From positions 1 through 28,864 of the IMG/VR virus record IMGVR_UViG_3300037487_000878: a stretch of DNA of 28,864 bases, one strand, 5' to 3'. The position numbers and the translations under genes were made by a program. This DNA is from a virus. The notes beneath the pieces were generated by a model. That model saw only the letters and a program-made list of their open reading frames with translations, did not search any database and was not told the DNA's origin. This document shows, one piece after another, positions 3,955-28,864 of the stretch (position 1 is its first letter; each line of letters opens with the position of its first letter).

Positions 3955-4614
3955 TTACGTCTTGATGAAGTAGTAACCAACCCAGCAAGGATGAACCACG
4001 TTGAACGGGCTTGAACTTCCGGTGGTATCCATCGGATCTGCGTAGGCCCAATCAAGGCTTCCCCCTTGAGTGATGTCGTTAACCCTTCCAATCGTCTGCC
4101 GAACTAGAATTTGCTGCCCGCCATCAGTGCTGTATGCGTGACGATGTGTTGCAAGTTCAGCCTCCGTCATCGTGTGCCGCTCTTCGCCGACGGACAGGGT
4201 TGCGATGTCCCGGTTCGTTAGCCCTGACCCCTGGCCGGCACCGATTGGTGAACGGCTACGAAGGTCGGGAAGCGTGAAGGTGGTCGTTCCGTTTCCCGCT
4301 CCGTATCTCGTTCCAATCTGCGCGTACAGGTCGGCGTAGGTCGTTCTCGAAACCTCGCTGCCGTCAGCAAGGATCCATGCAGTGCCCATGTTTAGCGTGA
4401 GCGACATCACCACTGTTCCGGTCGGAGCCGTGAACTGCGCCACCTCTGACTTGAAGTCGTCGCTTACGGTTCCATCCGCGTTCAGCATCCATCCGAACAA
4501 GTCGCAGAGTAGCTGCGGGACATTGAGGAACTTGCTGAACCGCGTGCAGAAATCTGCGTTCGCGGCTGGAACAGCATCGCAGAACTGAGACGGTGTTACT
4601 GGATTTGTAGCCAT
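3955..4614 (-). CDS. Phage tail collar domain protein (219 aa)
   Basis: Residues about 65-125 carry the tail-collar fold signature: a TGTVVMSLT start, the WILADGSEVSRTTYADLYAQIGT core, then GNGTTTFTLPDLRSRSPIGAG. This is the sequence pattern of the Phage Tail Collar family (PF07484). A metal-binding-like HRH lies near residue 157 (ELATHRHAYST), as in short tail fibres and Mu/T4-type collar proteins. The N-terminal 60 residues differ from the family and probably attach it to the tail. It lies between the connector-like gene and the large tail protein in one minus-strand transcript. The collar assignment is firm; the exact place in the virion is inferred. Confidence 0.9.
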   Translation of the reverse strand: MATNPVTPSQFCDAVPAANADFCTRFSKFLNVPQLLCDLFGWMLNADGTVSDDFKSEVAQFTAPTGTVVMSLTLNMGTAWILADGSEVSRTTYADLYAQIGTRYGAGNGTTTFTLPDLRSRSPIGAGQGSGLTNRDIATLSVGEERHTMTEAELATHRHAYSTDGGQQILVRQTIGRVNDITQGGSLDWAYADPMDTTGSSSPFNVVHPCWVGYYFIKT

Positions 4615-4625
4615 GTGCGTATTCG

Positions 4626-5465
4626 TTAGACTGCGGTTCCGTAAAGCGGGGACAGCTCAGACATCATTTGACCAACCGCAGCGGAGCAGTCCCGCTTTGG
4701 CTGGGTGTCCTGCTCGTCGTGATATCGATACTTCAGCATCCGGAGGCTGGCCGCGTAGTCGGATTCATATTGGGCCTTGGCCACAAAGTCCCGCTCCTTC
4801 TTTGCCATCTTCGCCTCGACGTAATTGATTACAGCCTCCTGAAGCTGCTGGTCAACCGGGACCAGGTTGCTGTCGTCCCAGTTCCGTCTAATCCCCTGCC
4901 ACTGCACGAGCAGCTTGTATCCGCACGGGAATCTCGGGCCTGCGTAAATCTTGTAGTCAGGACCAACCGCAAAGATTCGGTCGTCATCATCAAGCCCCTT
5001 GAACTGGCAGTCGTCTTCAGTTGCCGTCAGGTAAGGGGATGCGCAGGCCGTCTGCCCACTGATCAGGTAGTTGCAGTAAGGCGTGTCGTAAATGTTCGTC
5101 GGAGCTGGATCGAACGTGCATTGCACGCACCTCTGGCGCTCAATCCAGCAGTCCATCTCTGACGTGCTGACGCGCTTGTAGTAATACTTCCGGCAGTCCA
5201 GCCCCGGCCAATAGGCCAGCAGTTGAGTGACCTTGCCTACGGGACCATCAAAGATGGATGCAGCGCAGAACTCTATCACGTCCGACTTGGTTTTTACCTC
5301 GATGTTGAAATCTCTGAACCACGGAATGATCGTCTGAATGTCTGCCAACGCATACCCGGTCTGAGCGCGGAAGTAAGCTTCCATCTCCTCGCCGAGATCT
5401 TCCGGCGCAACCAAGGGTTGAATTGCCGCGAGGAAGTTGACGAAGGTTTGGTATGTGATTGGCAT
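4626..5465 (-). CDS. Putative head-tail connector/adaptor protein (279 aa)
   Basis: The 279-residue protein begins MPITYQTFVNFLAAIQPLVA and has about ten cysteines in its middle third (including WIERQRCVQCTF and CGYKLLVQW). Its C-terminal part is helical and charged (LQEAVINYVEAKMAKKERDF), a segment often seen in connector proteins that pack against the portal. Length and position, between capsid-side genes and the collar protein, fit a podoviral adaptor or tail tubular protein A. No diagnostic motif was recognised, so this is a context call. Start context TTATGCC is shared with other genes of this block; there is no Shine-Dalgarno sequence. Confidence 0.7.
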   Translation of the reverse strand: MPITYQTFVNFLAAIQPLVAPEDLGEEMEAYFRAQTGYALADIQTIIPWFRDFNIEVKTKSDVIEFCAASIFDGPVGKVTQLLAYWPGLDCRKYYYKRVSTSEMDCWIERQRCVQCTFDPAPTNIYDTPYCNYLISGQTACASPYLTATEDDCQFKGLDDDDRIFAVGPDYKIYAGPRFPCGYKLLVQWQGIRRNWDDSNLVPVDQQLQEAVINYVEAKMAKKERDFVAKAQYESDYAASLRMLKYRYHDEQDTQPKRDCSAAVGQMMSELSPLYGTAV

Positions 5466-5471
5466 AACGAA

Positions 5472-5945
5472 TTAGACCGCAGCTCGTAAATCTTTCATCT
5501 TCGCCGTAGGCGGCTTGGTGAACATTCCGGCAAAGGACTCATTTGTCGGAACCTCGATTGGGTCTGGCATTTTGGCGGGCTCGCGGATGGCCCCAAGCCC
5601 GTGCTGGTTGCGCGCGCGCTCCGGCTGTTGCGGTGCAGCGAACTGACCGTGCGTGTTACCGTTTTCCCCCGCAGCACGAAGCCCGCCCAACTGGTGGGCT
5701 GACAGCTCCCGCCTCTGCGGCCTGTTGTTCGAGCTGAATCCGGAGGAGATCTGTTCGGCTTTTTTTTTAGCCTCTTCGGCGTACTGCTCTTCCGTGATTG
5801 ACAGCACTCCGCCAATCCCGCGAGCGATACACTTGTCCAGTTCTGCAATGAGTGTCGCATCGTTGGTTTCAAGGATGTCGAACCTCATCGCGGAGCCGTT
5901 CACGAATACTGCACTGTCTGGTATTTCTTTCTGGAAGTAACGCAT
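5472..5945 (-). CDS. Hypothetical virion-block protein (157 aa)
   Basis: The protein has a short ordered N-terminus (about 1-60, including ILETNDATLIAELDKCIARG) and a long low-complexity, hydrophilic remainder rich in Gln, Asn, Arg, Pro and Ala. The ordered part resembles small proteins found after capsid genes in other phages, which often start with a beta strand pair. It is the first gene after the capsid terminator and ends 6 nt before the connector-like gene. Function unknown. Its position suggests a capsid decoration, head-completion or connector-associated role. Confidence 0.7.
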   Translation of the reverse strand: MRYFQKEIPDSAVFVNGSAMRFDILETNDATLIAELDKCIARGIGGVLSITEEQYAEEAKKKAEQISSGFSSNNRPQRRELSAHQLGGLRAAGENGNTHGQFAAPQQPERARNQHGLGAIREPAKMPDPIEVPTNESFAGMFTKPPTAKMKDLRAAV

Positions 5946-5960
5946 GACTAATCCATAACC

Positions 5961-5994
5961 AAAAACCCCGGAGTTGCAAGACGCAACTCCGGGG
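5961..5994 (-). terminator. Intrinsic terminator downstream of the capsid gene
   Basis: Read on the minus strand, a perfect 12-bp stem CCCCGGAGTTGC/GCAACTCCGGGG with a 5-nt loop is followed directly by TTTTT. It lies 29 nt past the capsid stop codon and before the 157-residue gene. This is a textbook rho-independent terminator. It would limit transcription into the tail genes relative to capsid. Confidence 0.93.
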
Positions 5995-6022
5995 CTGTGC
6001 CACGATCACCGCCAACCAAAGC

Positions 6023-7741
6023 TTACGCCGAGTACAAATCCGTGTAAGGCGTGATACCGCTATCACCGCGAGGAATCTGGGTGATGTCGAAGTTTTCAAC
6101 AATCGCGCTGGTCGCCGGGCATTCAACCACGGCGGTCCAAGTCAGCGAGTTCAACTGAATCTCCTGCGTCGGGTTTGCCATGACGCAAGCGTAGTCGCGG
6201 TCCACGGAGGCGAGCTTCTCAAGGTCGCCAGTCGTGTGCTTGACCGAGTTCGACGTGATGATGCCGGGATAGATGCTGGTGAAGTCCAGGATCCAGAGGA
6301 AGCGACCGGAGGAACCGATGCTTTCCAGCGAGTGAGCCGTCGCGAAGTCATCGAAGTAGGGGTTCGTGACAATGCGGAGCTTCACCTGCGGATACTGGAG
6401 CTTGTACTCGTCGAAGTTGAATCCGAGAGTGCCCATGTTCCCGCTCATCACCTGCTTGGTGTCGATCATGAACCGAGCCAGACCGTCGGAGCGAGTATCG
6501 TAATACTCGATCATGCCGCGCTGGAACTGCGATGCGGTATACGAGTCGGTGAAGATCTCGATGGTATCGTTCGGGGTACCCTGGTCGCCGCGCGCACGCC
6601 AGATGGGGTAGATGAGATTCTCGAACAACTCAACCAAGTTGAGGCGCTGGTTCTGGAGGTCGAACACCTGACCGCACTCGGCAAGCTGCTCGTAAACGCC
6701 GATGGCGTTCGCCTTGCGGCCCACGCACCGACCTTCGCCGGGCACATACAACCCTTGCGTGGTGTTGGACACGGTGGCCACTTCAGCCAGGCTGCGGTAG
6801 GAACCGAGAGTCTGGTTGGTGGAGATGCGCTTGTTCCAGAAGAACTTGTTCAGCCACTCACGCTGAAACACGTCACCGAGCTGCTTGTTGCGCTGCGTGG
6901 AATCCACGTCACCGAACAGCTTGAAGTACTCGTTGCCGTCTTGGAGGCGCTTGAACCACGCTTCGTAGAGCTGGTCGGTACACATGGTGTAACGGTCAGT
7001 CTCCCACCAGAACGGGACATGCTTCCGGTCGTTTAGCGCCGGGCGATTGTAGCACCAGCGTTCCACGTCCTGCACGTTCGCGGAACCACGGATGACAACA
7101 CCGGCACTGAGCGGGGAACCACCGGAGAACCCGGAGAACGCAGCTTTCGCAACCCAACCGAGCGTGTCGTTCTGCGCAGTGGCAGTGATGAGTACAGTGG
7201 AAGCGCCACTGAAGGTCGATGTCTGCGAACCGGTGATAAGGAATGCGCCACGAAGAGCAGTGCCTGCGGAGCTGCGGGCGTTGACGAAGATAGTCATGCC
7301 GGGGACGAACCAGCGTTCGTCAATCGGAATGGAAGCGCGACTGTTGACGTGGATGGTGTAAACACCGCCCGCCACGAACAAGTTCTTCAGGCTCCAATAC
7401 TCCGCGTTGATGACGGAGTGCTGGCTGGCCATGATGAACGGGGCAATCTCGGAGTTGCCCGGCCCGAGCGGCGTGACAATCTTCTTGTTGCCAAGCATCC
7501 GCTTGTTCGACATCAGGAAGTCATACAGGCCATTGGTCTTGGCACCGCACGCCTTGATCTCGAACTGGGTTGCGAGCAGCGCATGAAGATCCCGGAAGTT
7601 ACCGGAGCCATCAGTGAAGATCGAAGACAGTTCGTCAGACTCTGCGGTGACAACACTACAGAGCGTGACCGCACCGCATTCGTTCACGTTGTTGCCGATG
7701 GCCGGCAGGCATTTCTCGAAGATATTTGCGCTAATCGCCAT
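6023..7741 (-). CDS. Probable major capsid protein (572 aa)
   Basis: The 572-residue protein begins MAISANIFEKCLPAIGNN. It is rich in aromatic and beta-forming residues, with no signal peptide or enzyme motif. Segments such as YEQLAECGQVFDLQNQRLNL, FTDSYTASQFQRGMIEYYD and YPQVKLRIVTNPYFDDF read like the peripheral and axial domains of HK97-fold capsid proteins, but this is a visual judgement. Support comes from position: directly after a scaffold-like gene, with its own strong terminator and a structured leader, as expected for the most abundant virion protein. It is longer than typical capsid proteins (300-450 aa), so an extra inserted domain is likely. The start is the first ATG; no Shine-Dalgarno sequence is present. 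Confidence 0.8.
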   Translation of the reverse strand: MAISANIFEKCLPAIGNNVNECGAVTLCSVVTAESDELSSIFTDGSGNFRDLHALLATQFEIKACGAKTNGLYDFLMSNKRMLGNKKIVTPLGPGNSEIAPFIMASQHSVINAEYWSLKNLFVAGGVYTIHVNSRASIPIDERWFVPGMTIFVNARSSAGTALRGAFLITGSQTSTFSGASTVLITATAQNDTLGWVAKAAFSGFSGGSPLSAGVVIRGSANVQDVERWCYNRPALNDRKHVPFWWETDRYTMCTDQLYEAWFKRLQDGNEYFKLFGDVDSTQRNKQLGDVFQREWLNKFFWNKRISTNQTLGSYRSLAEVATVSNTTQGLYVPGEGRCVGRKANAIGVYEQLAECGQVFDLQNQRLNLVELFENLIYPIWRARGDQGTPNDTIEIFTDSYTASQFQRGMIEYYDTRSDGLARFMIDTKQVMSGNMGTLGFNFDEYKLQYPQVKLRIVTNPYFDDFATAHSLESIGSSGRFLWILDFTSIYPGIITSNSVKHTTGDLEKLASVDRDYACVMANPTQEIQLNSLTWTAVVECPATSAIVENFDITQIPRGDSGITPYTDLYSA

Positions 7742-7802: not shown

Positions 7803-9344
7803 TTATCTGCCGAACAGCGTTTTTGAGAAAGCGTCCATCAAAACTGCCCTTCCACCTTTCGGTGCTTCTCCTTTTGCGTCGATTGGAGCACCACTACCAA
7901 CTGAAGGAGACACCGGCTTTACGGCTTGAGCTTGGGGTGCTGCGGCCTGAACCCCTTGTGCTGCCTTTGTCGCATCCGACTTTGACGAACCTGCTGCTGC
8001 CGCAGTCCTCGGCACGAAACCCATCGACTCGGCAATCTTTTTGTAGCGATCTTTTTCCGTCTTGATGATTTGCGCTGCGGTTTTTGCTGCGAAATCCACA
8101 ACTCCAGAGACGAGGTGATCCGGCGTCAGGTACCAGTGCTTCTCGCGCTGCGCTGCGTTCATTCTTCCGAAGTCGGCCCGCGACGCGAACATCTTTCCAG
8201 ATTCATCCGTGCGGCCAGCGCACCGGGCCTCGCCATCAATCAGGATTTCGTTCCACTTCTGGTGAAGCGGGTTGTTCGGGTCAATGGCGAACCTGCCACG
8301 CGGGTCGTCGAGCTGAATAATCGTCTCGATGATTGGCTGAAGTGGCCCAAGCGTGTGGGTCAGCACCTCTGCCGTGATGGGATCCTCTTCCTCAAGCTTG
8401 GAGAACCCGCCCTTCGTGATTCTTTCGTGGACATCTTCACCGACGGACCTGGCGAGCAGTCCGGCTGCGGATGTGAATGCGCGATCAACTGTTGGTGCCA
8501 GCTCGATCCGCGCACTGTCGCGTTCAAGTTCCTTGAATTTTGCATTCGATCCCCTGAGCTTTCGTTCGACAATCTCCTCCGCCTTGATTTCAATCTCGGC
8601 GTCTCGGAACTCTCGGTCTGACCAAGGCTTTTCCAAAGCCTCGTAAAACGTGTCATGCTCATCATCGTCCGGACTGAACACCCTTCCTGGATTTGATTCT
8701 TCCCAGCGTGATGCGTAATCCTCGGACTTCTTGATGTGGTCCAAGACGATCTTCTCGGCACCCTTAAATTTCGGGTTCGTCTCGCTCAGGTGCTTTGCCG
8801 TCAGGTATTCCCGCCGGTCGTCTTCCTTCAGCGAGTCTTCCAGCTTAACCGGGGCAGGCTCATTGCGCTGGACGGATGGCTGCATGGCTCGCACGGCAGC
8901 CGCCGTCGCCGCCGTCGCCGCATCGCTGACCAACTTACCGGTGTCGATTGGCTCTGGTGCTGGCTTCTTCTTGGAAACAATGGTCTTGGCCGGCTTGTCT
9001 TCCGTCGGAGCGGCAACGACTGGGGCTTCAGCCTTCTTTTCCTCCGGTTTGGGGGTGAATTTGAGGGCTTTCGCAATCAAGTCACCGAGCTTCGGCCTGT
9101 CAGATGGGGGTGTTTCAGCCCCTGATTCCGCTGGTTTTTCAGGGGTTTCGACCGCTTTCGGGGTGGATTCAGCCTCCTTTTTGGACCTGCGCCGGGCGAT
9201 CAAGGCGTCCATTGCCAGGTTCGGGTCGCTTTCCATGCGCTGCATGGCGGACTGAGGGGCTGGCGGCTGGGGTGCTTGGGGTGGCTGTTGGGCTTCGGGT
9301 GGTAGCTGCGGGGCTGGAGCTACCGGGGCGGATTCGATTGGCAT
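7803..9344 (-). CDS. Probable capsid scaffolding protein (513 aa)
   Basis: The first 35 residues are a Pro/Gln/Ala-rich tail. The rest is strongly charged, Lys/Glu/Ala-rich and largely helical (for example SKKEAESTPKAVETPEK and FRDAEIEIKAEEIVERK). It ends in a basic, hydrophobic FSKTLFGR tail. High charge, low aromatic content and a basic C-terminus are typical of phage scaffolding proteins, whose C-terminus binds the capsid protein. The position between portal and capsid genes is the usual one. No protease motif was seen. Start is ATG in the context AATTATGCC. The family was not identified by sequence, so this is a composition and context call. Confidence 0.75.
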   Translation of the reverse strand: MPIESAPVAPAPQLPPEAQQPPQAPQPPAPQSAMQRMESDPNLAMDALIARRRSKKEAESTPKAVETPEKPAESGAETPPSDRPKLGDLIAKALKFTPKPEEKKAEAPVVAAPTEDKPAKTIVSKKKPAPEPIDTGKLVSDAATAATAAAVRAMQPSVQRNEPAPVKLEDSLKEDDRREYLTAKHLSETNPKFKGAEKIVLDHIKKSEDYASRWEESNPGRVFSPDDDEHDTFYEALEKPWSDREFRDAEIEIKAEEIVERKLRGSNAKFKELERDSARIELAPTVDRAFTSAAGLLARSVGEDVHERITKGGFSKLEEEDPITAEVLTHTLGPLQPIIETIIQLDDPRGRFAIDPNNPLHQKWNEILIDGEARCAGRTDESGKMFASRADFGRMNAAQREKHWYLTPDHLVSGVVDFAAKTAAQIIKTEKDRYKKIAESMGFVPRTAAAAGSSKSDATKAAQGVQAAAPQAQAVKPVSPSVGSGAPIDAKGEAPKGGRAVLMDAFSKTLFGR

Positions 9345-12117: not shown

Positions 12118-12387
12118 TTACTTGTAGGTTGCAGCAGGCTTCGACGCCGGCTTCATCGCCTCTTCCGGTTCCGCCTCGGCAGTCGCTGGCTCCGTCTCGG
12201 TTTCAGTGTCGGCAGCTTCATCCTCAGTGCCCTCCACCTCTGCGGATGTGACATCAGCCACATTTCGCTTTGGGCCGACGCCGGTCTTCACCTTGACCGT
12301 CAGCTCGTATTCCGTCGAGTCCGCCCAGCCGTCCACCATCTTTTTGACGCCAGGGTCCGCCATGTCGAAAACAATTGTTGAAGCCAT
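12118..12387 (-). CDS. Small acidic protein at the head of the virion operon (89 aa)
   Basis: The ATG at 12387 gives MASTIVFDMADPGVKKMVDG. The context AACGTATGGCT matches the start of the 93-residue tail gene. The N-terminal 50 residues could fold (YELTVKVKTGVG). The C-terminal 40 are a Glu/Thr/Ala-rich acidic tail. It is the first gene of the minus-strand virion transcript and stops 2 nt before the portal GTG. Its 5' end overlaps the 5' end of the divergent terminase gene by 26 bp. A second in-frame ATG at 12363 would share the palindrome CATG with the terminase ATG. Function unknown. Confidence 0.65.
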   Translation of the reverse strand: MASTIVFDMADPGVKKMVDGWADSTEYELTVKVKTGVGPKRNVADVTSAEVEGTEDEAADTETETEPATAEAEPEEAMKPASKPAATYK

Positions 12388-13987
12388 ACGTTTTGAACTT
12401 GAACATCTAACTGCCCTCCCCGCAACCTCAATCGTGCCAATCAAAGTCAATCCTGAAAGCGGTTTCATATACGATACGGACGGGGCTTGGTATCCCCCTC
12501 TCAACCAGAAGCAGTTTGAGATATTCAGCGATTACCACCGCTACCTGCTCATCCACGGGCCGCGTAAGTCCGGCAAGACATTTGCGATTCTCCAGAAGGT
12601 AATCCGCCATGCGTTCGACGTGAACGGGGCGATGGTCGCCATCGTCACGAAGACCATCAAGAACGCCAAGTCAGCCGGCGTGTGGGTTCTGCTGGATCGA
12701 ATGCTGAAGATGTGGGCTCAGGGGTGCCACGGATTTACGATCACCGAAGGACCGAAGACGACCGGTGATTCCAAGATGAGCTTCGTCCGGATACGCAACC
12801 GGCACGGAACCATCTCCGAGATTCAGTGTCACTCCCTGGAACACTCGACGGAGGTTGAGGCGAAGTTCAAGGGTCCGGCGTATTCGATGTTCTGGCTGTC
12901 GGAGTTCGACCAGTATTGCGACGAGCACGCATTCGACATCTTCTGCGACGCGCTGCGCATGTGGCCGAACGTGAAGTATGAGGAGCACCAGATCATCTGC
13001 GACTGCAATCCTCCGGACACTGGAACGAACAACTGGATCCATGACAAGTGGTTCAAGTTCAAAGATTCCGTGCTGAAGGATGACGACGACAAGATTTTCC
13101 AAGACGGACTTCATCGGATCTTGGTGAACCTTGACGACAACCCGCAGCTCGATCCTCGCGAGCGGCGTGAAATCGAGACGCGCTACAAGAAGCGCAAGGC
13201 GCTGTTCAACCGATTCATCCTCGGCCTGTGGGAGCAGGACATCACCGACGGTCACTTCTCTGACGTGTATGACGAATCAGAGCACGTCCTCGGAAATGTG
13301 GACTGCGCGGAAGAGGACTGGGAGATCATGGTTCCAACACCTGGATGCACAACGCTCATCGGTGGGTGGGATATGGGTGAGAGCAAGAACCACTCGTTCC
13401 ACATCATGGAGAAGATTATCACCGAGCATCCAGTCACGAAGCGCCAGATCATCGCGTTCTCCGTGATTGATGAGTTCGTCGTGATCCGGACCTACAAGTC
13501 GATCCGAGAGTTCACCGAAATCTGCTTGGAAAAGATTGAGCACTGGAACAACTGGCAGCTCAAGAAGTGCAACATCAAGTTGAACTGGCGTCACTGGTCC
13601 GACACCTCTGCATTCAGCGACCGGGCGTCAGCGGAGAAGAGTGACGCTGCCATCACGTACGAGGCGAGCGATGGCCAGATCGTCCTTAACGCTGCACCGA
13701 AATACAAGGACTCGAACCGAGACAAGGTGAAGCTTGTCTGGCAGTTCCTTTACGAGAAGCGGTTGCACATCTCCGCACAACTTACAGCGACGCGCGCGAT
13801 GCTGACGAATCTTCGGAGCGATCCTCACACGGCGTCTCATTACGTGAAGCGTGACGACCACAAGCATCCGTTCGACTCAATGTCGTATCCAATCATTGCA
13901 GAGGCACCGTCTGACATGATGCGCTCCGCTGAGATCGGGACAACGACCAAGAAGGAATTCTCAGGCATGGTAATTTCAGGAGCATAA
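12362..13987 (+). CDS. terL: Terminase large subunit (541 aa)
   Basis: The DNA-packaging motor and nuclease. ATPase motifs: Walker A GPRKSGKT at 66-73, Walker B MFWLSEFD at about 176-183 with the catalytic Glu, and the coupling motif CDCNPPD near 213-219. The segment DDNPQLDPRERREIETRYK and FNRFILGLW is the usual linker. RNase H-type nuclease acidic residues are in GGWDMGES (D337), HWSDTSAF and HPFDSMSYP. Length is normal for the family. The ATG at 12362 is preferred because upstream residues in this frame are antisense to the neighbouring gene and lack family character. It acts with the portal at the prohead vertex. The small subunit was not identified here. Confidence 0.95.
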   Translation: MSKTIVEAIRFELEHLTALPATSIVPIKVNPESGFIYDTDGAWYPPLNQKQFEIFSDYHRYLLIHGPRKSGKTFAILQKVIRHAFDVNGAMVAIVTKTIKNAKSAGVWVLLDRMLKMWAQGCHGFTITEGPKTTGDSKMSFVRIRNRHGTISEIQCHSLEHSTEVEAKFKGPAYSMFWLSEFDQYCDEHAFDIFCDALRMWPNVKYEEHQIICDCNPPDTGTNNWIHDKWFKFKDSVLKDDDDKIFQDGLHRILVNLDDNPQLDPRERREIETRYKKRKALFNRFILGLWEQDITDGHFSDVYDESEHVLGNVDCAEEDWEIMVPTPGCTTLIGGWDMGESKNHSFHIMEKIITEHPVTKRQIIAFSVIDEFVVIRTYKSIREFTEICLEKIEHWNNWQLKKCNIKLNWRHWSDTSAFSDRASAEKSDAAITYEASDGQIVLNAAPKYKDSNRDKVKLVWQFLYEKRLHISAQLTATRAMLTNLRSDPHTASHYVKRDDHKHPFDSMSYPIIAEAPSDMMRSAEIGTTTKKEFSGMVISGA

Positions 13988-14965: not shown

Positions 14966-15114
14966 ACTATGATCGGGAGCTGCGGGTGTGGCGGATTATG
15001 AACCGAGTGAAACGCCTTGTGGTTCTTTCGGCAATCCCGATTCGCTGCACCAGTGATATTTCCGATAAACATGCGGATGCGATTGAATATCGTTTGTGGT
15101 TTCTGGTGTTTCAT
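14923..15114 (-). CDS. Small basic zinc-finger-like protein (63 aa)
   Basis: The ATG at 15114 overlaps the helicase-loader stop as ATGA. The product begins MKHQKPQTIFNRIRMFIG and ends IIVCSHCGRNHRRSPN. It is basic, with CxxC followed by H, which could bind zinc if completed by upstream Cys/His (C28, H32, H36). The stop overlaps the acyltransferase 5' end by 43 bp. The overlap geometry is the main support. Function unknown; a nucleic-acid-binding accessory of replication is possible. Confidence 0.65.
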   Translation of the reverse strand: MKHQKPQTIFNRIRMFIGNITGAANRDCRKNHKAFHSVHNPPHPQLPIIVCSHCGRNHRRSPN

Positions 15115-15704
15115 TTCCTCACAAAGTAATCCCTGACATTCAGCTCCACCACCACGGAGCCATCCCGCTGCATCCGGCTGCTGACGCGCTCGTCTACCTG
15201 AGCCCCGATTTCCTGAAGGCTTCGGTTGCTCGTAACCACGGTCCACTTCCCGACACGCTTTGAGCACAGGCGAGCGAGGCAGTCCCGGACATGTCCATTC
15301 TTGTCCCGGTCGGCACCAATCTCGTCGATGACAACGACACGCTCCTGAGCGATGTCATCCAGCATCCCGGTCCACTCGTTCTGCTGAAGGTGCCATGCTA
15401 CGTCAGGCCAGTCACAGAACCGACCAGGGTTCAGGCCGTCAGTGAACTGTTCCCTCCAGTGAGGAGACTGCTTGTACCAGTCCCAGATGGTGCGCGCGAG
15501 GAACGTCTTCCCGCATCCGGAAGGGCCAAGCAGCACCAACCACCGTGGCTTCTGTCCGGTCCTGATGTCATCGATGAACCGGACGCACTCCTTTGCCAGT
15601 TGCCGGAGCTGCTTCTGCTCCTCCTTGGTTCCAGTTATCTTGAACCGGAAGATGTCGATCCAGCGGTCAAGGTCTTCTTTGCTCAGTTGGTGTTCGGGTG
15701 TCAT
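15111..15704 (-). CDS. DnaC-like helicase loader ATPase (197 aa)
   Basis: AAA+ ATPase of the DnaC/IstB type, which loads the replicative helicase on DNA. Walker A GPSGCGKT is at 60-67, Walker B VVVIDEIG at 123-130, sensor-1-type VVTSN at 156-160, and a Box VII-like VSSRM with an arginine at 177. The N-terminal 50 residues are helical and would contact helicase or the initiator. The start at 15704 is chosen because its ATG overlaps the stop of the upstream replication gene as ATGA; an in-frame ATG further upstream lies deep in that gene. The length is slightly short for DnaC and normal for phage versions. The initiator-then-loader order matches many phages. Confidence 0.9.
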   Translation of the reverse strand: MTPEHQLSKEDLDRWIDIFRFKITGTKEEQKQLRQLAKECVRFIDDIRTGQKPRWLVLLGPSGCGKTFLARTIWDWYKQSPHWREQFTDGLNPGRFCDWPDVAWHLQQNEWTGMLDDIAQERVVVIDEIGADRDKNGHVRDCLARLCSKRVGKWTVVTSNRSLQEIGAQVDERVSSRMQRDGSVVVELNVRDYFVRK

Positions 15705-16537
15705 GTGGTTTGGTTGGGTTGTTGTGTCTTTCGTAATTCCGCTTCCTCGTACCATCTTTCAGTCTCCGCAATGCTGGCATCCTGAAGCCTCTTTTGATGC
15801 CGGCTTGCCTCGTCTCCCCTGTTGGCATTGAGCGTGCCGGCGTTTCGGTCGTGTCCATTTGGCTTGGATGACTTAAATGTGGACGGGTCGTCATTGAACC
15901 GGTGCTGGTTGAACCATGTGGACGGATGCGCGGTGTATTGCGGATCCTCGCCAGCCCGAGACTTCGCATACAGGGCAGTTCTGGAGAGAATCAGGTCAAA
16001 GTCGAATTGCTCCAACGCTGACAGGATTGAGGTGATAGCCTTCGGCTTCCCCACCTTCTTCGGGTAGGATTCGTATATCGCTTCAGCCTGCTCACGGAGC
16101 TTGGACACCATCGCTGGAATCTCAGACGAAGGGTCTTTTGGTGGTGGAGCAGGGTCTTGGTCCTTCTTGCTTGCCCGATGCTTGGCCACCCTGGCGGTAG
16201 CCTCCGCCCTGCTGCGGACCTGATCGTATTCCTTCCAGTTGAGTATCTGCCACCCCCAGTCACGATGGTTGTCCAGCCTTGCGATGCGCCTTCCTCCGTT
16301 GTCTGGATTGCGGCTGCTATCGTCTGGAGCCTCCAGCTTCTCAATGGCTCTGTTGAGCTTGTCGAGGGGGACGTTAAACTTCCTCGCCAGAGCGTGACGG
16401 GTAATGTCAACGATGCCTCCATGCTCGCCGGTAGTGCAGACCTTCAGGAAGTCTTCAAAGACGTGGCGCACCTCGAAGTCCTCGGCAATGGAGGAGTCCA
16501 GAATCTGGGAGAAGACACGGGCGTAAAGCTGGCTCAT
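15701..16537 (-). CDS. Phage replication initiation protein (278 aa)
   Basis: The N-terminal 100 residues have a winged-helix look (VFEDFLKVCTTGEHGGIVDITRHALARKFNVPLDKLNRAIEKL), as in primosome or replication O-type proteins. A basic linker (residues about 115-150) follows. The C-terminal part contains YPKKVGKPKAITSILSAL and DPQYTAHPSTWFNQHRFND, a segment seen in many phage replication proteins that precede a DnaC-like loader. It is the first gene of the five-gene minus-strand operon and the loader gene overlaps it by 4 nt. A TTGACG-N17-AAGAAT promoter lies so close that the mRNA may be leaderless. It is expected to bind origin DNA and recruit the loader and helicase. Confidence 0.85.
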   Translation of the reverse strand: MSQLYARVFSQILDSSIAEDFEVRHVFEDFLKVCTTGEHGGIVDITRHALARKFNVPLDKLNRAIEKLEAPDDSSRNPDNGGRRIARLDNHRDWGWQILNWKEYDQVRSRAEATARVAKHRASKKDQDPAPPPKDPSSEIPAMVSKLREQAEAIYESYPKKVGKPKAITSILSALEQFDFDLILSRTALYAKSRAGEDPQYTAHPSTWFNQHRFNDDPSTFKSSKPNGHDRNAGTLNANRGDEASRHQKRLQDASIAETERWYEEAELRKTQQPNQTT

Positions 16538-23992: not shown

Positions 23993-24862
23993 ATGAACAC
24001 ACCAACCACAATGCTAGTCGGCATCTCTTTCGGGATGCCTCGTCAGTCACGGGAACTCAAGGCTGCATCGTCGCAGATTGAGACGCAGAACAACGCAGCA
24101 ACGGGCACCGTCCGCACGTCGGGCTTCTACTTCAAGCAGAAGGTAGCAGGCAAGGACGTTGACGGGCTGGCCACGCTCAAGAAATTCCAGACCGCATGGA
24201 AGACGGCGCTGGAAAACTACGCACGGTATCCCTTCGCATCAGGCATGAAGCTTCTGCCGGCTGCGCTCGTCGAGAAATTCCTGGTCGTCAATCAGGAGTT
24301 CAAGGACAACCAAGCCAAGGTCTGGCTGGACTGGGTGGACGATGAGTACCCGCTGTGGAAAGCATCGGCACCGGAGCGGATGGGTTCCTTCTATGACGAG
24401 ACGGACTTCCCGTCACAACAGGATTGCATGGCTCGCTTCAAGTGTGAGGTCACTGCGGTTCCGATGACTGAGGCCGAGCAGATCAAACGGACTGCGATGA
24501 TCAGTCCGAACATGGCAACCCTTATGGAGACGACGTTCAAGCAGGGCTTCGACCAAGCGCAAGAGGCAGCGTTCAAGGACTTGCTTGCGCCGATTGAATC
24601 CATCGTGTCCACACTGTCGAAGGACAAGGGCAAGATTCACGACTCGATGATCGGCAACTTGATCAAGATCATCGACCTCATCCCGGCGTTGAACCTGGCC
24701 AACGACCCGAAGATGGCGGAGGCTGCGGCTGCTGCCAAGGTGGGGCTGGCAGGCATCAACCCTGATGACTTGCGTAAGAGTGCCGAGGTCAGGGCAAGCA
24801 CGCTCGCGACGGCGAAGTCCATCGTCGCCACGTTCACACCGTTCGCGAGGAAGTTTGCCTGA
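23993..24862 (+). CDS. Hypothetical protein, possibly DUF3150-like (289 aa)
   Basis: The ATG gives MNTPTTMLVGISFGMPRQSR. Features: a GFYFKQKVAG segment near residue 45, then FQTAWKTALENYARYPFASG and MKLLPAALVEKFLVVNQEFK, a helical region that precedes DWVDDEYPLWKASAPERM. The order of Tyr-x-Pro-x-helix, then Trp-x-acidic, resembles DUF3150 proteins, which occur in phages beside MoxR-type AAA+ genes. That is a weak visual match. The C-terminal part is Ala-rich and helical. It ends TGATG on the next start. The leader has no Shine-Dalgarno sequence. Confidence 0.6.
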   Translation: MNTPTTMLVGISFGMPRQSRELKAASSQIETQNNAATGTVRTSGFYFKQKVAGKDVDGLATLKKFQTAWKTALENYARYPFASGMKLLPAALVEKFLVVNQEFKDNQAKVWLDWVDDEYPLWKASAPERMGSFYDETDFPSQQDCMARFKCEVTAVPMTEAEQIKRTAMISPNMATLMETTFKQGFDQAQEAAFKDLLAPIESIVSTLSKDKGKIHDSMIGNLIKIIDLIPALNLANDPKMAEAAAAAKVGLAGINPDDLRKSAEVRASTLATAKSIVATFTPFARKFA

Positions 24863-25389
24863 TGAGAAAGCTGACCCATACCGAGAAGGACGCCATCTAT
24901 CATCAGGTCCAGCAACGAATGAGCCGGTGGTATGGAGACGAGCGAGGCAAGACAGGGATGTCCTGCCTGCACTGGATGCACTGCGGATTGCTTGAGCTAT
25001 GCAATGCGGACATCAGGTGCTGGCCAATGGCTGGCTCCGCATCGTTCGTGTTCCAACCAGTCCAACCTGACGACGGGAAGATGAGTCACTTCTCATTCAT
25101 GTGGAACGGGGATCCAAATGCTGAGTCACGGATGCAGGCGGTGCCGACAGCCGGTGCCATCCCGCTACCTGAGATGCACTGCTGGATCTACCTGCCGGAT
25201 TCCGGTGAGGTGGTTGACTTCAGCACGGGCTACATACCCACGCTTGCCAAGGCGATGGGCTTCGAGTGGAAGGTGACACCACCTCCGCCATACATCTGGG
25301 CGCGGCCTGAGTCCATCTCGCCGCGTGCCATCTACACACCTGAGATGGACGCAATAAAACTGGCAGTGAAAATGATCACTGGCATGTAG
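24862..25389 (+). CDS. Possible transglutaminase-like cysteine protein (175 aa)
   Basis: The ATG overlaps the previous stop by 1 nt. A candidate triad in transglutaminase/papain-type order is visible: Cys35 in GMSCLHWM, His106 in MHCWIYLPDSGE and Asp119 in VVDFSTG. 'H-x-W-x(4-11)-V-x-D-x-S-T/G' is the usual look of the His/Asp part of that fold. The intervening distances are plausible. The C-terminal part is Pro-rich (KVTPPPPYIWARPESISP). It would be a cysteine protease, amidase or substrate-binding relative. Catalysis is inferred. Confidence 0.5.
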   Translation: MRKLTHTEKDAIYHQVQQRMSRWYGDERGKTGMSCLHWMHCGLLELCNADIRCWPMAGSASFVFQPVQPDDGKMSHFSFMWNGDPNAESRMQAVPTAGAIPLPEMHCWIYLPDSGEVVDFSTGYIPTLAKAMGFEWKVTPPPPYIWARPESISPRAIYTPEMDAIKLAVKMITGM

Positions 25390-25401: not shown

Positions 25402-25665
25402 ATGATAACCAATGACACGTTAGTTCAAGTCGGATTCAAACCACCGCCCATGAAGTTCACTAAGGTAGATCCTCGTGGTGCGGAATACGGAATGTTCACT
25501 GCGGAAATCGTGGACGCTCAGGAACCATTCAAGTTCTCGCTTCCAGCCCTCTTCGCGACTCAACTGATAGAGGTTCGGAAGTTGTTCTCTGATGGCTCGC
25601 TTGATTATCTGATGTACTTCACATCAGCCACTCACTTCCAACGGTGGGCAAAGGATGCTGTATGA
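25402..25665 (+). CDS. Hypothetical protein (87 aa)
   Basis: Starts MITNDTLVQVGFKPPPMKFT after an AGGAAAG leader. The middle (AEIVDAQEPFKFSLPALFAT) and end (SLDYLMYFTSATHFQRWAKD) form an alpha/beta small domain of unknown family. It is followed by an ATGA overlap on the next gene. Position, two genes before the DUF1257 gene, makes it part of the same transcript. Confidence 0.65.
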   Translation: MITNDTLVQVGFKPPPMKFTKVDPRGAEYGMFTAEIVDAQEPFKFSLPALFATQLIEVRKLFSDGSLDYLMYFTSATHFQRWAKDAV

Positions 25666-25847
25666 GTGTCGCAAGATTCACAGCCCGCGCTACCCGCTGG
25701 TTCAGGGGCGCACCACGCACTGAAAAAGAGTGTGACGCCTACACTGACGGGCTCTTCGACGGCGACATTTCAAATGCTGAAATGGATGCAGTCCAGAAGC
25801 TGATGAAAGACCTGCAATCCACCACCAAGAAAGAATCAAAACTATGA
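25662..25847 (+). CDS. Hypothetical small protein (61 aa)
   Basis: MSVARFTARATRWFRGAPRT is basic, followed by EKECDAYTDGLFDGDISNAEMDAVQ-type acidic helix sequence and a Lys/Ser tail. The ATG at 25662 overlaps the previous stop; an ATG 18 nt earlier is inside that gene and is not preferred. Its stop overlaps the DUF1257 start as ATGA. Likely an accessory of the neighbouring genes; no family recognised. Confidence 0.6.
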   Translation: MSVARFTARATRWFRGAPRTEKECDAYTDGLFDGDISNAEMDAVQKLMKDLQSTTKKESKL

Positions 25848-26296
25848 GCCACGTTGTATCGTCAGCAGTTGTAATCACAGACCTTGAGTGCCTGAAGGTG
25901 GCGCTCAAGAAGTTCCCGCAGTTGCGGTGGCGGGAGGGTCAGACCAACCATGCTTGGTATGGGTCATGGCAGGATGACTACTCGCAGCAGGACGCAGCCT
26001 ACAAGAACGGAATCCCGCCGAAGGATTACGGCAAGTGCGAGCACGCCATCCACATGGACGGCGTTGACTATGAGATCGGTGTAGTCAAACGCAGGGATGG
26101 CGAAGGCTACTCCCTGGTGTGGGACTTCTTTGGCAGTGGCAAGAAGATCTCCAAGTGCATCGGTGACTCAGCCGAGAAGCTGATGACCGAATACCAGTCC
26201 CATTACATCCGCCAGTTTGCGGACGCCAACGGGATGATGCTGGACCAGTCAACGGACAGTGAGGGAAACTTGGTGCTGACCCTGAATGAAGCATGA
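25844..26296 (+). CDS. DUF1257 (Ycf35-like) protein (150 aa)
   Basis: The product begins MSHVVSSAVVITDLECLKVA, which matches the DUF1257 start 'MSHF-x-x-x-x-x-I-x-D-x-x-x-L-x-x-A'. It continues with IHMDGVDYEIGVVKRRDGEG and YSLVWDFFGSGKKISKCIGD, the family's 'YDIGF...GYELVAD-W' core, then EKLMTEYQSHYIRQFADANG, the usual C-terminal helix. In cyanobacteria and algal plastids this family is Ycf35. Its biochemical function is not known. It overlaps the next gene, DUF2997, by ATGA. In bacteria these two families are often found together with a Ycf46-like AAA+ ATPase. Confidence 0.85.
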   Translation: MSHVVSSAVVITDLECLKVALKKFPQLRWREGQTNHAWYGSWQDDYSQQDAAYKNGIPPKDYGKCEHAIHMDGVDYEIGVVKRRDGEGYSLVWDFFGSGKKISKCIGDSAEKLMTEYQSHYIRQFADANGMMLDQSTDSEGNLVLTLNEA

Positions 26297-26490
26297 AAAC
26301 CATACGCTGCATCATCAACAAACAAACCGGCAAGCTCACGCTATCCGCTGAAGGGTACGAAGGTGCGTCCTGTCTTGAGGCCACCAAGAAACTGGAAGAG
26401 GGGCTTGGTCTTCGTGAGCCTGACCGTGAACTCAAGCCTGAGTATTACCAGCAGAACGAGACGGGTCAGCAGATTGGAGGTGGGGCATGA
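26293..26490 (+). CDS. DUF2997 protein (65 aa)
   Basis: Starts MKTIRCIINKQTGKLTLSAE and then GYEGASCLEATKKLEEGLGL, the DUF2997 pattern: a beta hairpin with 'G-x-V-x-x-x-A-x-G-x-x-G-x-x-C', then a helix 'LE-x-x-LG'. The remainder is an acidic, Gln-rich tail with KPEYYQQNE. The family is a small partner of DUF1257, function unknown. It starts by ATGA overlap with DUF1257 and ends by ATGA overlap with the next gene. Confidence 0.85.
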   Translation: MKTIRCIINKQTGKLTLSAEGYEGASCLEATKKLEEGLGLREPDRELKPEYYQQNETGQQIGGGA

Positions 26491-26651
26491 GAAGACTGCA
26501 CACCTATGTAATCCGGACAATCAACGGAGTGATACTGGGTCCGTTCACATCCAAGCTGATTGCAAGGCGCGAGCTGGCGAGTCGCAACCTTACAGGAGTA
26601 GTGCTCACCCATGAGGTCATATACCCAAAGAAACCAAAGGCAACGTCATGA
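26487..26651 (+). CDS. Hypothetical basic small protein (54 aa)
   Basis: Begins MRRLHTYVIRTINGVILGPF, then TSKLIARRELASRNLTGVVL, a beta-alpha-beta small domain with Lys/Arg-rich ends. Coupled on both sides by ATGA overlaps (26487 and 26648), which is strong support for translation. Function unknown. Confidence 0.68.
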   Translation: MRRLHTYVIRTINGVILGPFTSKLIARRELASRNLTGVVLTHEVIYPKKPKATS

Positions 26652-26839
26652 AAAAGAAATGGATGGTCGAACATCTCTACTGCTCTGGATGGGCAGATGC
26701 TGAGTGGTCGGTTGATGGTCAGCCGATACGGTTCGACACAAAGAAGGAAGCCATCGCAGAGATTGATGACCTGATTCAATCGGCATGGCATCTCGGCTAC
26801 AGGAAGAATGAATACCGAGCAGTAAGGGTAACGTCATGA
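26648..26839 (+). CDS. Hypothetical protein (63 aa)
   Basis: Begins MKKKWMVEHLYCSGWADAEW and then SVDGQPIRFDTKKEAIAEID, with a strand pair and helix typical of small phage accessory proteins whose 'W-x-x-x-x-DG-x-P-x-x-F-x-T-x-x-EA' pattern is common. Ends YRKNEYRAVRVTS. Joined at both ends by ATGA overlaps. No known family function. Confidence 0.7.
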   Translation: MKKKWMVEHLYCSGWADAEWSVDGQPIRFDTKKEAIAEIDDLIQSAWHLGYRKNEYRAVRVTS

Positions 26840-27174
26840 AGCACCACACCATCAAGCTCAAGCAGGACGGGCGCATTGAGTTCCTGAATCCACCACCATT
26901 CCCGGTGGCTGTAAACAAATCGCGGCAACGATTCTCTGAGATCGTGCCGGTCAACATCCCGCTGCGCATTGCATTCCGCATCCTCCGTCGTCTGTTCGGT
27001 GAGGTTGGGGCGTGTTCCATCTGGACACGTCAATGGGTCTGCCGATGGGAGTGCAGGATTCTGCTCGGCAGATTCAAGGGTGCAGTGCGTAGGTCGGTGA
27101 ACCGTGAGCGTCTGCTCCAGTGGGAGCGGGATGTATGGGCTGACGTGCGGCATGAACCGAAGGTGGACCTATGA
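26836..27174 (+). CDS. Hypothetical basic protein (112 aa)
   Basis: Begins MKHHTIKLKQDGRIEFLNPP, a short strand start, then a basic region with PLRIAFRILRRLFGEVGACS and WTRQWVCRWECRILLGRFKG, rich in Arg and Trp. A nucleic-acid or membrane-surface binding role would fit, but this is inference. ATGA overlap at the start and ATGATGA at the end. Unknown family. Confidence 0.65.
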   Translation: MKHHTIKLKQDGRIEFLNPPPFPVAVNKSRQRFSEIVPVNIPLRIAFRILRRLFGEVGACSIWTRQWVCRWECRILLGRFKGAVRRSVNRERLLQWERDVWADVRHEPKVDL

Positions 27175-27458
27175 TGAAACCATTCCGAGCGGATTGGTTG
27201 GACGATGGAAATGGAAACACGAACGGAGTCCGTGCTGACCGCGCATTCAATGCGCTTGAGAGTTACGCATCAGCGGTTAATCACAGTCCACCAAGGCAGG
27301 GTATAGACCCGGCACTGGTCCAGGATCTGATGAACGATATCCTCCACGCAATGCACTGCCAAGACATGGATGAGGTTGGTCTTGATGAGTTCATCGAGCT
27401 GGCAAGATCCGCGCACTCCGGATTCCTTAAGGAGTCAGGCAGTTCCGAAGACGAGTAA
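27171..27458 (+). CDS. Hypothetical acidic protein (95 aa)
   Basis: Starts MMKPFRADWLDDGNGNTNGV, then LVQDLMNDILHAMHCQDMDE and VGLDEFIELARSAHSGFLKE. The sequence ATGATGA at the overlap offers two start codons (27171 and 27174). The C-terminal half is an acidic helix. No family recognised. It ends the tightly overlapped run; a hairpin spacer follows. Confidence 0.65.
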   Translation: MMKPFRADWLDDGNGNTNGVRADRAFNALESYASAVNHSPPRQGIDPALVQDLMNDILHAMHCQDMDEVGLDEFIELARSAHSGFLKESGSSEDE

Positions 27459-27465
27459 TCACTTT

Positions 27466-27497
27466 CACCCCGGCAGGCACGCCTCACTGCCGGGGTG
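27466..27497. other. Perfect 11-bp hairpin in the spacer at 27459-27530
   Basis: CACCCCGGCAG (27466-27476) and CTGCCGGGGTG (27487-27497) pair perfectly around a 10-nt loop. It lies 7 nt past the stop at 27458. There is no U-tract after it on either strand. It may be a factor-dependent terminator, an RNA end-protecting stem or a protein site. Confidence 0.6.
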
Positions 27498-27530
27498 GAT
27501 TAACTAACGACGGGGCAACGAAAGAAACTT

Positions 27531-27824
27531 ATGAACACATCGACAGCTACTACACAACAGAGAGTCAAGGTAATCGGAAACACCTACCCAGTTAAAGACA
27601 GGCTCCGCACTGAATGCGGTGCCCGATGGGACGGGAACGCAAAGGTCTGGATGGTGATGCCGGACCAGTTGGAGAAGGCGAACGCAATCGTAGCGCAAGC
27701 CGGACCAGTGAAGCCGAGACATGCTTCACCTGAAAAGCGGTGCTGGGAATGCGGCTGCTCGTTTAGTTACGGAGACGCAAAGCGCAACGGCGGCGATTGG
27801 GGGGACAGTTACTGCGGATGCTAA
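27531..27824 (+). CDS. DUF5710-like plus zinc-ribbon protein (97 aa)
   Basis: The first half, VKVIGNTYPVKDRLRTECGA and RWDGNAKVWMVMPDQLEKAN, matches the short 'G-x-TYP-VKD-L-x-x-x-GARWD-x-x-x-KVW' domain (DUF5710-like) found in many phage and plasmid proteins. The C-terminal part RCWECGCSFSYGDAKRNGGD with a final SYCGC has CxxC ... CxC and would bind zinc. The ATG follows AAAGAAACTT, the recurrent context. It lies 13 nt before the AAA+ gene. Function unknown. Confidence 0.75.
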   Translation: MNTSTATTQQRVKVIGNTYPVKDRLRTECGARWDGNAKVWMVMPDQLEKANAIVAQAGPVKPRHASPEKRCWECGCSFSYGDAKRNGGDWGDSYCGC

Positions 27825-27837
27825 CAGAGTAAAACTT

Positions 27838-28864
27838 ATGAATCAACTCACCACCTACATCAGTGCGGGATACGCCGCACTGTATGCAGTCACTCACGAA
27901 GAGGACCGCATCACATCAACCATCCTGTCCGCAGCGAAGGACATCAAGTGCAAGGACGGCAAGGCATACGAGGTATGGCAGTGGACTATCACGTCCGGCC
28001 TGACCAACAGCGAAGGTGAAACCATCGACAAGACGGCTGACCCGTTGGCCATGCTGACCGCGTTCATTGCGCACAACGTCAACCCTACTACGTCGGAACC
28101 TGAAGGGACGCACATCCCAAACAAGTCCATCGTCATCCTGAAGGACTTCCACTTGTTCCTGAAGAGTCCACCTCCGCTGCTGATTCGCAAGCTGAAGGAA
28201 GCCATCAGCGTGGGACGTGCAAGCAACCGTTGTCTCATCATCATGGGCTGCGTGCTGCATCTCCCGCCTGAGCTGGAGAAGGAAGTCACGGTCATCGAGT
28301 TCACGCTGCCCACCAGGGATGAGCTGCGCTGCGTGGCTGAGTCGGTGGCCAAGTCCGCCAACCAGATACTCAACGGCAACACGGACGCCATCCTTGATGC
28401 GATGTCCGGCCTGACTACCAGTGAGGCAAGTGATGCCGCTGCGTATTCAGTAGTGGAAAATGGGGAGATTGCAGCGTCCGTTGTTTCCCGCATCAAGGCA
28501 GACACCATCAAGAAGAATGGCATCCTTGAGATTGTCACCAACAAGGTGTCACTGTCTGACATCGGTGGGCTTGACCTACTGAAGTCTGACCTGCATTCCA
28601 AGCGGAACATGTTCACCAAGGCGGCAAAGGAATACGGGCTGCCCACTCCGCGTCCGTTGCTGTGCTGCGGTCAGGCTGGCACAGGCAAGAGCCTTACCGC
28701 TACGGCTACGGCTACGGTGTTCAACCTGCCACTGCTCAGGCTTGAGGCTGGCCGGCTGTTCGGTTCACTGGTCGGTGAGTCGGAGCGCAACTGGCGGACG
28801 GCGTTCGCTACAGCCAAGGCCGTGTCACCATGCGTCGTGTGGGTGGATGAGATTGACGGCTTGT
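27838..28864 (+). CDS. Ycf46-like AAA+ ATPase (partial at right edge)
   Basis: 342 residues are seen. The N-terminal part has the Ycf46 look: GYAALYAVTHEEDRITSTIL, KSIVILKDFHLFLKSPPPLL, LPPELEKEVTVIEFTLPTRD and a GLTTSEASDAAAYSVV helix. The AAA+ core follows with SLSDIGGLDLLKSDLHSKRN, a YGLPTPRPLL segment, Walker A GQAGTGKS at 278-285, LLRLEAGRLFGSLVGESERN and Walker B VVWVDEID at 333-340. The rest, including sensors and C-domain, lies outside the window. The expected role is protein or complex remodelling by ATP hydrolysis; the substrate is unknown. Start context AGTAAAACTTATGAA. It probably works with DUF1257 and DUF2997 upstream. Confidence 0.9.
   Translation, partial: MNQLTTYISAGYAALYAVTHEEDRITSTILSAAKDIKCKDGKAYEVWQWTITSGLTNSEGETIDKTADPLAMLTAFIAHNVNPTTSEPEGTHIPNKSIVILKDFHLFLKSPPPLLIRKLKEAISVGRASNRCLIIMGCVLHLPPELEKEVTVIEFTLPTRDELRCVAESVAKSANQILNGNTDAILDAMSGLTTSEASDAAAYSVVENGEIAASVVSRIKADTIKKNGILEIVTNKVSLSDIGGLDLLKSDLHSKRNMFTKAAKEYGLPTPRPLLCCGQAGTGKSLTATATATVFNLPLLRLEAGRLFGSLVGESERNWRTAFATAKAVSPCVVWVDEIDGL

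Follow-up and report, generated by a model that had tools for sequence, protein, structure and literature searches.

A recurrent phage gene module with a Ycf46-type AAA+ ATPase, DUF1257-like, DUF2997 and DUF3150-related proteins

The locus and its genes

At the right end of a 28.9-kb virus record (IMG/VR record IMGVR_UViG_3300037487_000878, positions 1 to 28,864, here called the window at its full length of 28,864 nucleotides), genes for a DUF1257-like (Ycf35-like) protein, a DUF2997 protein and a Ycf46-type AAA+ ATPase follow one another on the plus strand. We find that this trio recurs in other phages and in cellular genomes, and that it belongs to a module of at least five genes, since a DUF3150-related protein and a phrog_38408-like protein recur with it. 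In the rest of the window, tail and collar genes occupy the minus strand at 1–12 kb, the terminase large subunit is encoded at 12206–13987, and genes for a DnaC-like helicase loader (15111–15755) and a replication-initiation-like protein (15701–16537) precede the plus-strand run of small genes that makes up the right part. The genes of interest are as follows, with lengths in amino acids (aa), open reading frame abbreviated to ORF, and comparison loci cited by their L numbers.

23993–24862, plus strand: DUF3150-related protein, 289 aa, C-terminus ...FARKFA (iterated profile; similarity to L017:3268–4125)
25844–26296, plus strand: DUF1257-like (Ycf35-like) protein, 150 aa, N-terminal MSH motif (relatives, shared profile)
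26293–26490, plus strand: DUF2997 protein, 65 aa (Pfam 40.4 bits; phrog_23133; ATGA-coupled to DUF1257)
26487–26651 (54 aa) and 26648–26839 (63 aa), plus strand: two small coupled ORFs (no relatives found; membership unproven)
26836–27174, plus strand: P120, a phrog_38408-like protein, 112 aa, the fifth component (similarity to L017:5334–5681)
27171–27458, plus strand: coupled ORF, 95 aa (no relatives found; membership unproven)
27531–27824, plus strand: ORF, 97 aa, weak DUF5710 match, C-terminal Cys cluster (CWECGC...YCGC) (membership unproven)
27838–28864, plus strand: AAA+ ATPase, 3'-truncated by the contig end (AAA 55.4 bits; phrog_8638; 51% identity to L017:5989–7476)

Six successive ATGA overlaps, at 25844, 26293, 26487, 26648, 26836 and 27171, couple the seven genes that span 25644–27458 and strongly point to a single operon. 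An earlier note, made from the sequence alone, had described an ATGA junction between the DUF1257 and DUF2997 genes, five ORFs beyond it and an AAA+ gene about 1.35 kb downstream on the same strand, and each of these observations holds: the junction has its ATG at 26293 and its TGA at 26294–26296, the five ORFs encode 54, 63, 112, 95 and 97 aa, and the gap fits the probable ATPase start at Met40. The longest AAA ORF starts at 27721 and runs off the contig end after 381 codons; the match to its nearest relative begins at Met40 (nt 27838), and a start there would remove the overlap with the ORF at 27531–27824.

The DUF2997 assignment passes the Pfam cut-off (PF11211, 40.4 versus 24.1 bits), and the protein also belongs to phrog_23133. 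Its upstream neighbour falls below the Pfam DUF1257 cut-off (PF06868, 15.1 versus 22.2 bits). It aligns end to end with the corresponding proteins of L015 and L016 (33% identity, E-value 9e-19), which have the same neighbour genes around them, and it scores 121 bits in a common profile with phage DUF1257 proteins that do pass the cut-off (34.6 bits for HJ05, 36.8 bits for L338C). Because of this end-to-end similarity to cut-off-passing proteins in the same gene context, we call the product of 25844–26296 DUF1257-like by homology through intermediates, and not a Pfam member. Likewise, “Ycf46-type” is a description of type and not proven membership, and the window's DUF1257 is divergent. The DUF1257 and DUF2997 families are common to the phage module and the cyanobacterial and plastid Ycf46–Ycf35–DUF2997 set, whose Ycf46 we take to be an AAA ATPase of the same broad type as the window's; in the phage module, the ATPase, the DUF3150-related and the phrog_38408-like proteins join in. 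A photosynthesis-related role, as the Ycf names might hint, is unsupported, and relatives that carry the trio are spread over myxobacteria, planctomycetes, verrucomicrobia, omnitrophota, clostridia, archaea and phages.

Recurrence and partners of the ATPase

For a survey of gene neighbourhoods, the ATPase alignment was run against IMG/VR to gather viral loci (80 loci), and the stretch that follows Walker B was run against genomes of bacteria and archaea to gather cellular ones (80 loci, spread over many phyla); in the viral loci, partners were called by local profiles. The co-occurrence on which the earlier note staked its proposal was found in other phages as well as in bacteria. Both partners lie near the ATPase in 30 of 88 non-redundant viral loci and in 30 of 80 cellular loci, with a median gap to the ATPase of 52 bases in the latter. 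The two partner genes share a strand, DUF1257 first, in 29 of the 30 viral and 29 of the 30 cellular loci that have both, and they are usually adjacent. Among isolated phages, the DUF1257 protein of L338C matches 21 of 50,697 records (Rhizobium, Aeromonas, Pseudomonas and Rhodobacter phages), and all 21 also bear the ATPase, the two genes being 0.8–1.5 kb apart in the regions read. By profile, Agrobacterium phage JP1 carries the ATPase, DUF1257, DUF2997 and a phrog_38408-like protein. One archaeal locus (Hodarchaeota contig L148, 3100–5103) has the trio followed by genes that, by reading alone, look like Mre11 and Rad50.

On the ATPase tree, partner presence changes 20 times as compared to 55 when shuffled, and at least 12 gains or losses are forced by well-supported branches; the association of the trio follows descent in part, yet it turns up again in lineages that are separate from one another. 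In this tree the window sits with L017, L018, L019 and L015, and many of the partnerless loci fall in one clade, that of the Corndogvirus-like ATPases.

Natural DUF1257::DUF2997 fusions, each beside an ATPase gene, occur in clostridial-type genomes and in one viral contig, and they support a physical partnership of the two families.

L178: 1468–2022 (both domains over their own Pfam cut-offs)
L179: 1474–2028
L152: 4319–4888
L119: 6544–7122
L022: 7491–8063 (the viral contig)

We modelled the L178 fusion from an alignment of fusion proteins and DUF1257 rows (predicted local distance difference test, pLDDT, 84). Its residues 85–160, which comprise the last DUF1257 helix and hairpin plus DUF2997, align to KA1 domains with VIA-align (Z 8.1, 2.8 Å, 75 residues, in the range where chance matches occur), a hint of a composite alpha-beta, KA1-like domain across the boundary between the two families. 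A Foldseek comparison of the model with the PDB gave no significant match (KA1 E-value about 0.4–0.6), and a PDB sequence search with the DUF1257 and DUF2997 alignments gave only chance-level matches. A single-protein scan of IMG/VR with DUF2997 returned no confirmed relative.

These repeated associations bear on the simplest alternative, that the genes are neighbours without joint function and the AAA protein is a generic ATPase. Gene order does vary, the ATPase leading in HJ05 and L338C and closing the set in the window and L015, and unrelated ORFs lie in between; against this stand the co-occurrence in viruses, bacteria and archaea, the fusions and the complete overlap (21/21) in the phage records, and we regard independence as very improbable.

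The module extends beyond the three genes that the earlier note picked out: the trio is real, and the module reaches upstream to 23993. An iterated profile built from the protein of 23993–24862 and searched in the fetched ATPase loci converges on 28 proteins in 28 loci, several of them over the Pfam DUF3150 cut-off (56–87 bits). The window protein itself has no direct match over the cut-off of Pfam DUF3150 (PF11348), hence “DUF3150-related”; it is 21% identical along its length to L017:3268–4125 (E-value 4e-17). In whole-record searches, Pfam DUF3150 passes its cut-off in 13 of 40 viral records as compared to none of 14 control genomes. The proteins of ∼210 aa in HJ05 and L338C were considered as members of this 289-aa protein's family and show no sign of it; among such candidates only that of L015 belongs. 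Directly after the DUF3150-related gene lies a 175-aa protein (24862–25389) with no family match, whose scattered Cys and His residues might suggest an enzyme.

The phrog_38408 family of small proteins also recurs beside the trio. The window protein of 26836–27174 scores weakly against the family profile (6.5 bits), and it is 29% identical over 72 aa to L017:5334–5681 (pairwise E-value 1e-9), with which it has in common an insertion that the rest of the family is without. An alternative candidate, the ORF at 25402–25665, has no profile support. Of the suggestion that the five genes between DUF2997 and the ATPase are further parts, then, what stands is the tie of 26836–27174 to the module; the other four are without such support. 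L017 parallels the window: a stretch of 4.2 kb contains its genes for the DUF3150-related, DUF1257, DUF2997 and phrog_38408-like proteins and for the ATPase, arranged in the window's order. In L015, a Cys-motif ORF is found directly upstream of the ATPase gene, the position of 27531–27824 in the window.

The commonest other neighbour family in cellular loci raises a different reading of the module, that of a cofactor maturase that would activate or load an iron-sulfur or radical-SAM enzyme of the host or the phage (compare the MoxR-type AAA+ chaperones of metalloenzymes). A 4Fe-4S single-cluster/radical-SAM gene occurs in 18 cellular loci, 15 of which also have DUF1257 or DUF2997, and in 5 viral loci, and a radical-SAM UPF0004 gene adjoins the fusion gene in L178 and L179. 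In Synechocystis the adjacent DUF2997 and ycf35 (DUF1257) genes lie beside the ferredoxin gene fed7 (PMC4284462), although that cluster differs from the phage module in its ferredoxin gene, in having DUF2997 first and in listing no ATPase. The part of the window that was searched showed no radical-SAM gene, nor did L015 or L017, and most viral trio loci are without one. In the phage alignment, moreover, DUF2997 has one conserved Cys and DUF1257 has no conserved metal-ligand set. We judge a maturase unlikely, if a serious contender.

The predicted motor and its C-terminal tails

The window ATPase matches Pfam AAA (PF00004) with 55.4 bits against a cut-off of 21.2, has intact Walker A (GQAGTGKS) and Walker B (VVWVDE) motifs, and belongs to phrog_8638 (E-value 4e-59). 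Its 51% identity to full-length L017:5989–7476 covers D1 and the start of D2. The full-length ATPase of L015, modelled with AlphaFold (pLDDT 90), has as its best PDB matches the D1–D2 portions of p97/Cdc48 and Rix7, over ∼550 alignment columns that include both AAA domains; the chain is 510 aa and has no further domain beyond the AAA lid. Of 173 family members, 169 have Walker A beyond residue 170 and only 2 have it within the first 150 residues. Taken together, the placement of Walker A and the two-domain model suggest that the first 220 residues form a degenerate AAA ring, with D2 as the engine. The family is thus of the Ycf46-type architecture, tandem AAA with a predicted inactive D1, Walker A being present only in the second domain; the window copy itself is truncated. 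The earlier proposal of an ATP-driven remodelling module fits an ATPase of this type, with D1 lacking Walker A and D2 complete in the full-length relatives.

As in Cdc48/p97 and Rix7, D1–D2 is predicted over the whole chain and the profile match falls on the second AAA domain. The phage ATPase differs from Cdc48/p97 in that D1 is without Walker A, there is no p97-type N-domain and the small partner families are unrelated. Established subfamily models do not claim it: the CDC48 cut-off (TIGR01243, 802.65 bits) is missed by the truncated window protein (50.9) and by L015 (81.2), and the L015 ATPase also misses the FtsH protease cut-off (70.5 versus 600 bits). Phage copies of these families are annotated as AAA-ATPase or hypothetical.

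The top match of the L015 ATPase is the NCBIfam model of an anti-phage ATPase (IteA), at 92 bits far below the cut-off of 510. Together with the description of the SGI1 antitoxin ATPase as SpoVK/Ycf46/Vps4-related (PMC10954446), this brings up a conflict system, either an IetAS/SgiAT-like ATPase–protease pair or another device against the host or a rival. Yet the subtilisin partner (Peptidase_S8) occurs in 0 of the 40 related viral records searched, which makes IetAS-type defence unlikely and, with the low ATPase score, leaves the module outside the IetAS/SgiAT systems; nor is any toxin-like gene constant across loci. We find a conflict function highly doubtful.

Pvc15, the cargo-selecting chaperone of extracellular contractile injection systems (eCIS), is a tandem AAA protein of which only D2 is active (PMC11495950), so by its described anatomy it resembles the phage ATPase. 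By analogy, the module might be a cargo-loading or assembly chaperone whose ATPase loads or assembles virion proteins. Cellular relatives of the window ATPase occur in contractile-injection loci, including L149 with an eCIS core protein, and L133, L147 and L176 have tail-hub or tail-chaperone-like genes; isolated phages, for their part, place the ATPase after tail and lysis genes. In these contractile-injection-like loci (L149, L133, L147 and L176) the ATPase is accompanied by DUF2997, in L149 by DUF1257 too, and in some by radical-SAM genes. In the window, unlike the Pvc15 setting, no eCIS genes were seen, and the module is set among small genes without known function, on the strand opposite to the tail genes and >10 kb away from them. 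The L338C module leads into a replicative helicase gene, and plasmid DUF3150 cassettes keep company with recombination or transfer genes, not virion genes. On balance we hold cargo loading to be improbable.

A further feature links the ATPase to the DUF3150-related protein. Family ATPases often end in R-x-[LIM]-[DE]-[LIV] or RK[LI]AA, and DUF3150-related proteins do likewise: a tight form of the pattern is found in 78 of 165 ATPases and 15 of 27 DUF3150-related proteins, as compared to 49 of 2296 other ORFs. Within a genome the two tails match, with a mean score of 15.3 versus 11.2 when permuted (0 of 5000 permutations reached it), and when each clade is represented by a single locus the median permutation p is 0.003. 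Both proteins of L018 end in TRKIAKAA, for example. In L015 a 223-aa neighbour ends in RKLAA and the ATPase in RKLAAAA, and in the viral contig L022 two small ORFs adjoining the fusion gene (8060–8338 and 8403–9005) end in RVIRR like the ATPase. When two unrelated proteins encoded in one genome end alike, a single shared receptor is the best explanation.

The Corndogvirus-type ATPase is similar in belonging to phrog_8638, in having an adjacent partner of 250–300 aa (phrog_11021) and in its C-terminal motif. It differs in having no DUF1257 or DUF2997, and no relationship is detectable between its partner and the DUF3150-related protein; HHalign gives phrog_11021 a probability of only 2.6% as a DUF3150 homologue. 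In this Corndogvirus-like sister clade (L006, L009–L014, L033–L056 and others), some phrog_11021 partners end like the ATPase.

Proposed function and related cassettes

We propose, with a probability of about one half, that the module is a phage-encoded Cdc48/Ycf46-like protein remodelling machine with a DUF1257–DUF2997 adaptor and tail-docked partners. It builds on the observed gene content, conservation, fusions, predicted tandem-AAA fold, D1 without Walker A and matched tails, and from there we infer a hexamer, threading, an adaptor role, docking and, at the furthest remove, a substrate. The ATPase would assemble as a hexamer of tandem AAA domains, like Cdc48/p97, in which D1 would serve as a non-catalytic ring while D2 hydrolyses ATP and draws the client through the pore. 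Together, the DUF1257-like protein and the DUF2997 protein would make up a single composite adaptor, which would present clients or regulate the ring, and the DUF3150-related and phrog_38408-like proteins would be further partners of the machine. The genome-specific C-terminal peptide (R-[KR]-hydrophobic...) would bring the ATPase and the DUF3150-related protein to a common receptor. Pvc15, in which D2 is the only active domain and which serves as a chaperone, is a precedent for a machine of this kind. As to the substrate, we weakly favour, as our best guess, nucleoprotein complexes that take part in phage replication or recombination: the hints are a WGR-ligase gene inside the L015 module, a weak ligase match in L017, the recombination context of the plasmid relatives and the archaeal Mre11/Rad50-like genes.

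Several findings weigh against this proposal. The DNA-related neighbours vary from locus to locus, and in cells the copies are found in different surroundings, such as contractile injection systems and radical-SAM genes. Neither partner family is found in the fetched flank of 37 of 80 cellular loci (some contigs are short), the Corndog-like viral clade is without both DUF1257 and DUF2997, and DUF3150 was not found in the five isolated phages that carry the trio. Neither the accessible literature nor the PDB sequence search turned up a relative of DUF1257, DUF2997 or DUF3150 whose biochemical role is solved. The KA1-like match is of a quality that chance also yields, and the tail pattern was noticed before testing, on the same data. 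The window ATPase ends before the arginine-finger region, so that its own tail is unseen, and its closest clade varies after Walker B, with LPDPLIDRLD, for example, instead of LPPELLRKGRFDE. ATPase activity in that clade is therefore not assured, the window copy being cut before the varying region.

The DUF3150 subunit provides a bridge from this proposed machine to plasmids. In all four plasmid regions read, the DUF3150 gene is flanked by an AAA ATPase gene, annotated once as MoxR, on one side and by a VWA gene on the other, and two of the regions have RecT and lambda-type exonuclease genes nearby. Relatives of the window-like DUF3150 subgroup (query L017) occur on 41 plasmids, mostly of Burkholderiales (best 29% identity, E-value 7e-29), and adjoin VWA-like genes in both regions read. 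The phage module resembles the MoxR–DUF3150–VWA cassette in its DUF3150 subunit and in that a mobile element carries both a motor of the AAA+ class and the genes of its partners. It differs in its motor, tandem AAA of the classical type as opposed to a MoxR-like or other small AAA protein, and in its partners, DUF1257–DUF2997 as opposed to VWA or DUF2201, and so falls outside the cassette; DUF2201 is present in only 1 of 25 related viral records. The plasmid cassettes and the phage tandem-AAA loci together suggest that a related DUF3150 subunit is served by either motor type, two AAA+ systems thus sharing a subunit. More tentatively, and as a possibility short of our main proposal, mobile elements may share an interchangeable AAA+ toolkit: DUF3150 would work with MoxR and VWA proteins on plasmids and with a Cdc48-like tandem AAA and a DUF1257–DUF2997 adaptor in phages, where the parts would recognise each other by a genome-specific C-terminal peptide marking machine, partner and sometimes neighbours. 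The plasmids L181–L186 carry cassettes of AAA ATPase, DUF3150 and VWA/DUF2201 genes. In L182, a WGR protein (4481–4834) and DUF3150 (5016–6065) both end in NWF, a possible second instance of tail sharing.

Neither the module nor DUF3150 nor the tails are described in the accessible literature, which most subscription journals lie outside and in which only three papers mention DUF1257 or DUF2997; the families are known but unexplained, and an AAA+ motor with adaptors in this composition is not described there. In phages, a machine whose other copies are scattered across plastids, cyanobacteria, myxobacteria and archaea comes in a small form that is amenable to genetics. From the fusions, the common DUF3150 subunit and the tail matches follow direct, testable predictions of which proteins bind and through which residues, and cultured phages, among them Rhizobium phage L338C, Pseudomonas phage SM1 and Aeromonas phage HJ05, open a way to the role of Ycf35 and Ycf46 relatives.

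The record of a Streptococcus satellite phage and that of Acidianus tailed spindle virus (MK448457.1 and KU645528.1) also contain relatives of the ATPase. A 109-kb Rhizobium plasmid (NZ_CP071625.1) bears at 30839–31303 a DUF1257 gene with 54% identity to the one in phage L338C; the plasmid is nearly as long as the L338C genome and is possibly a phage-plasmid.

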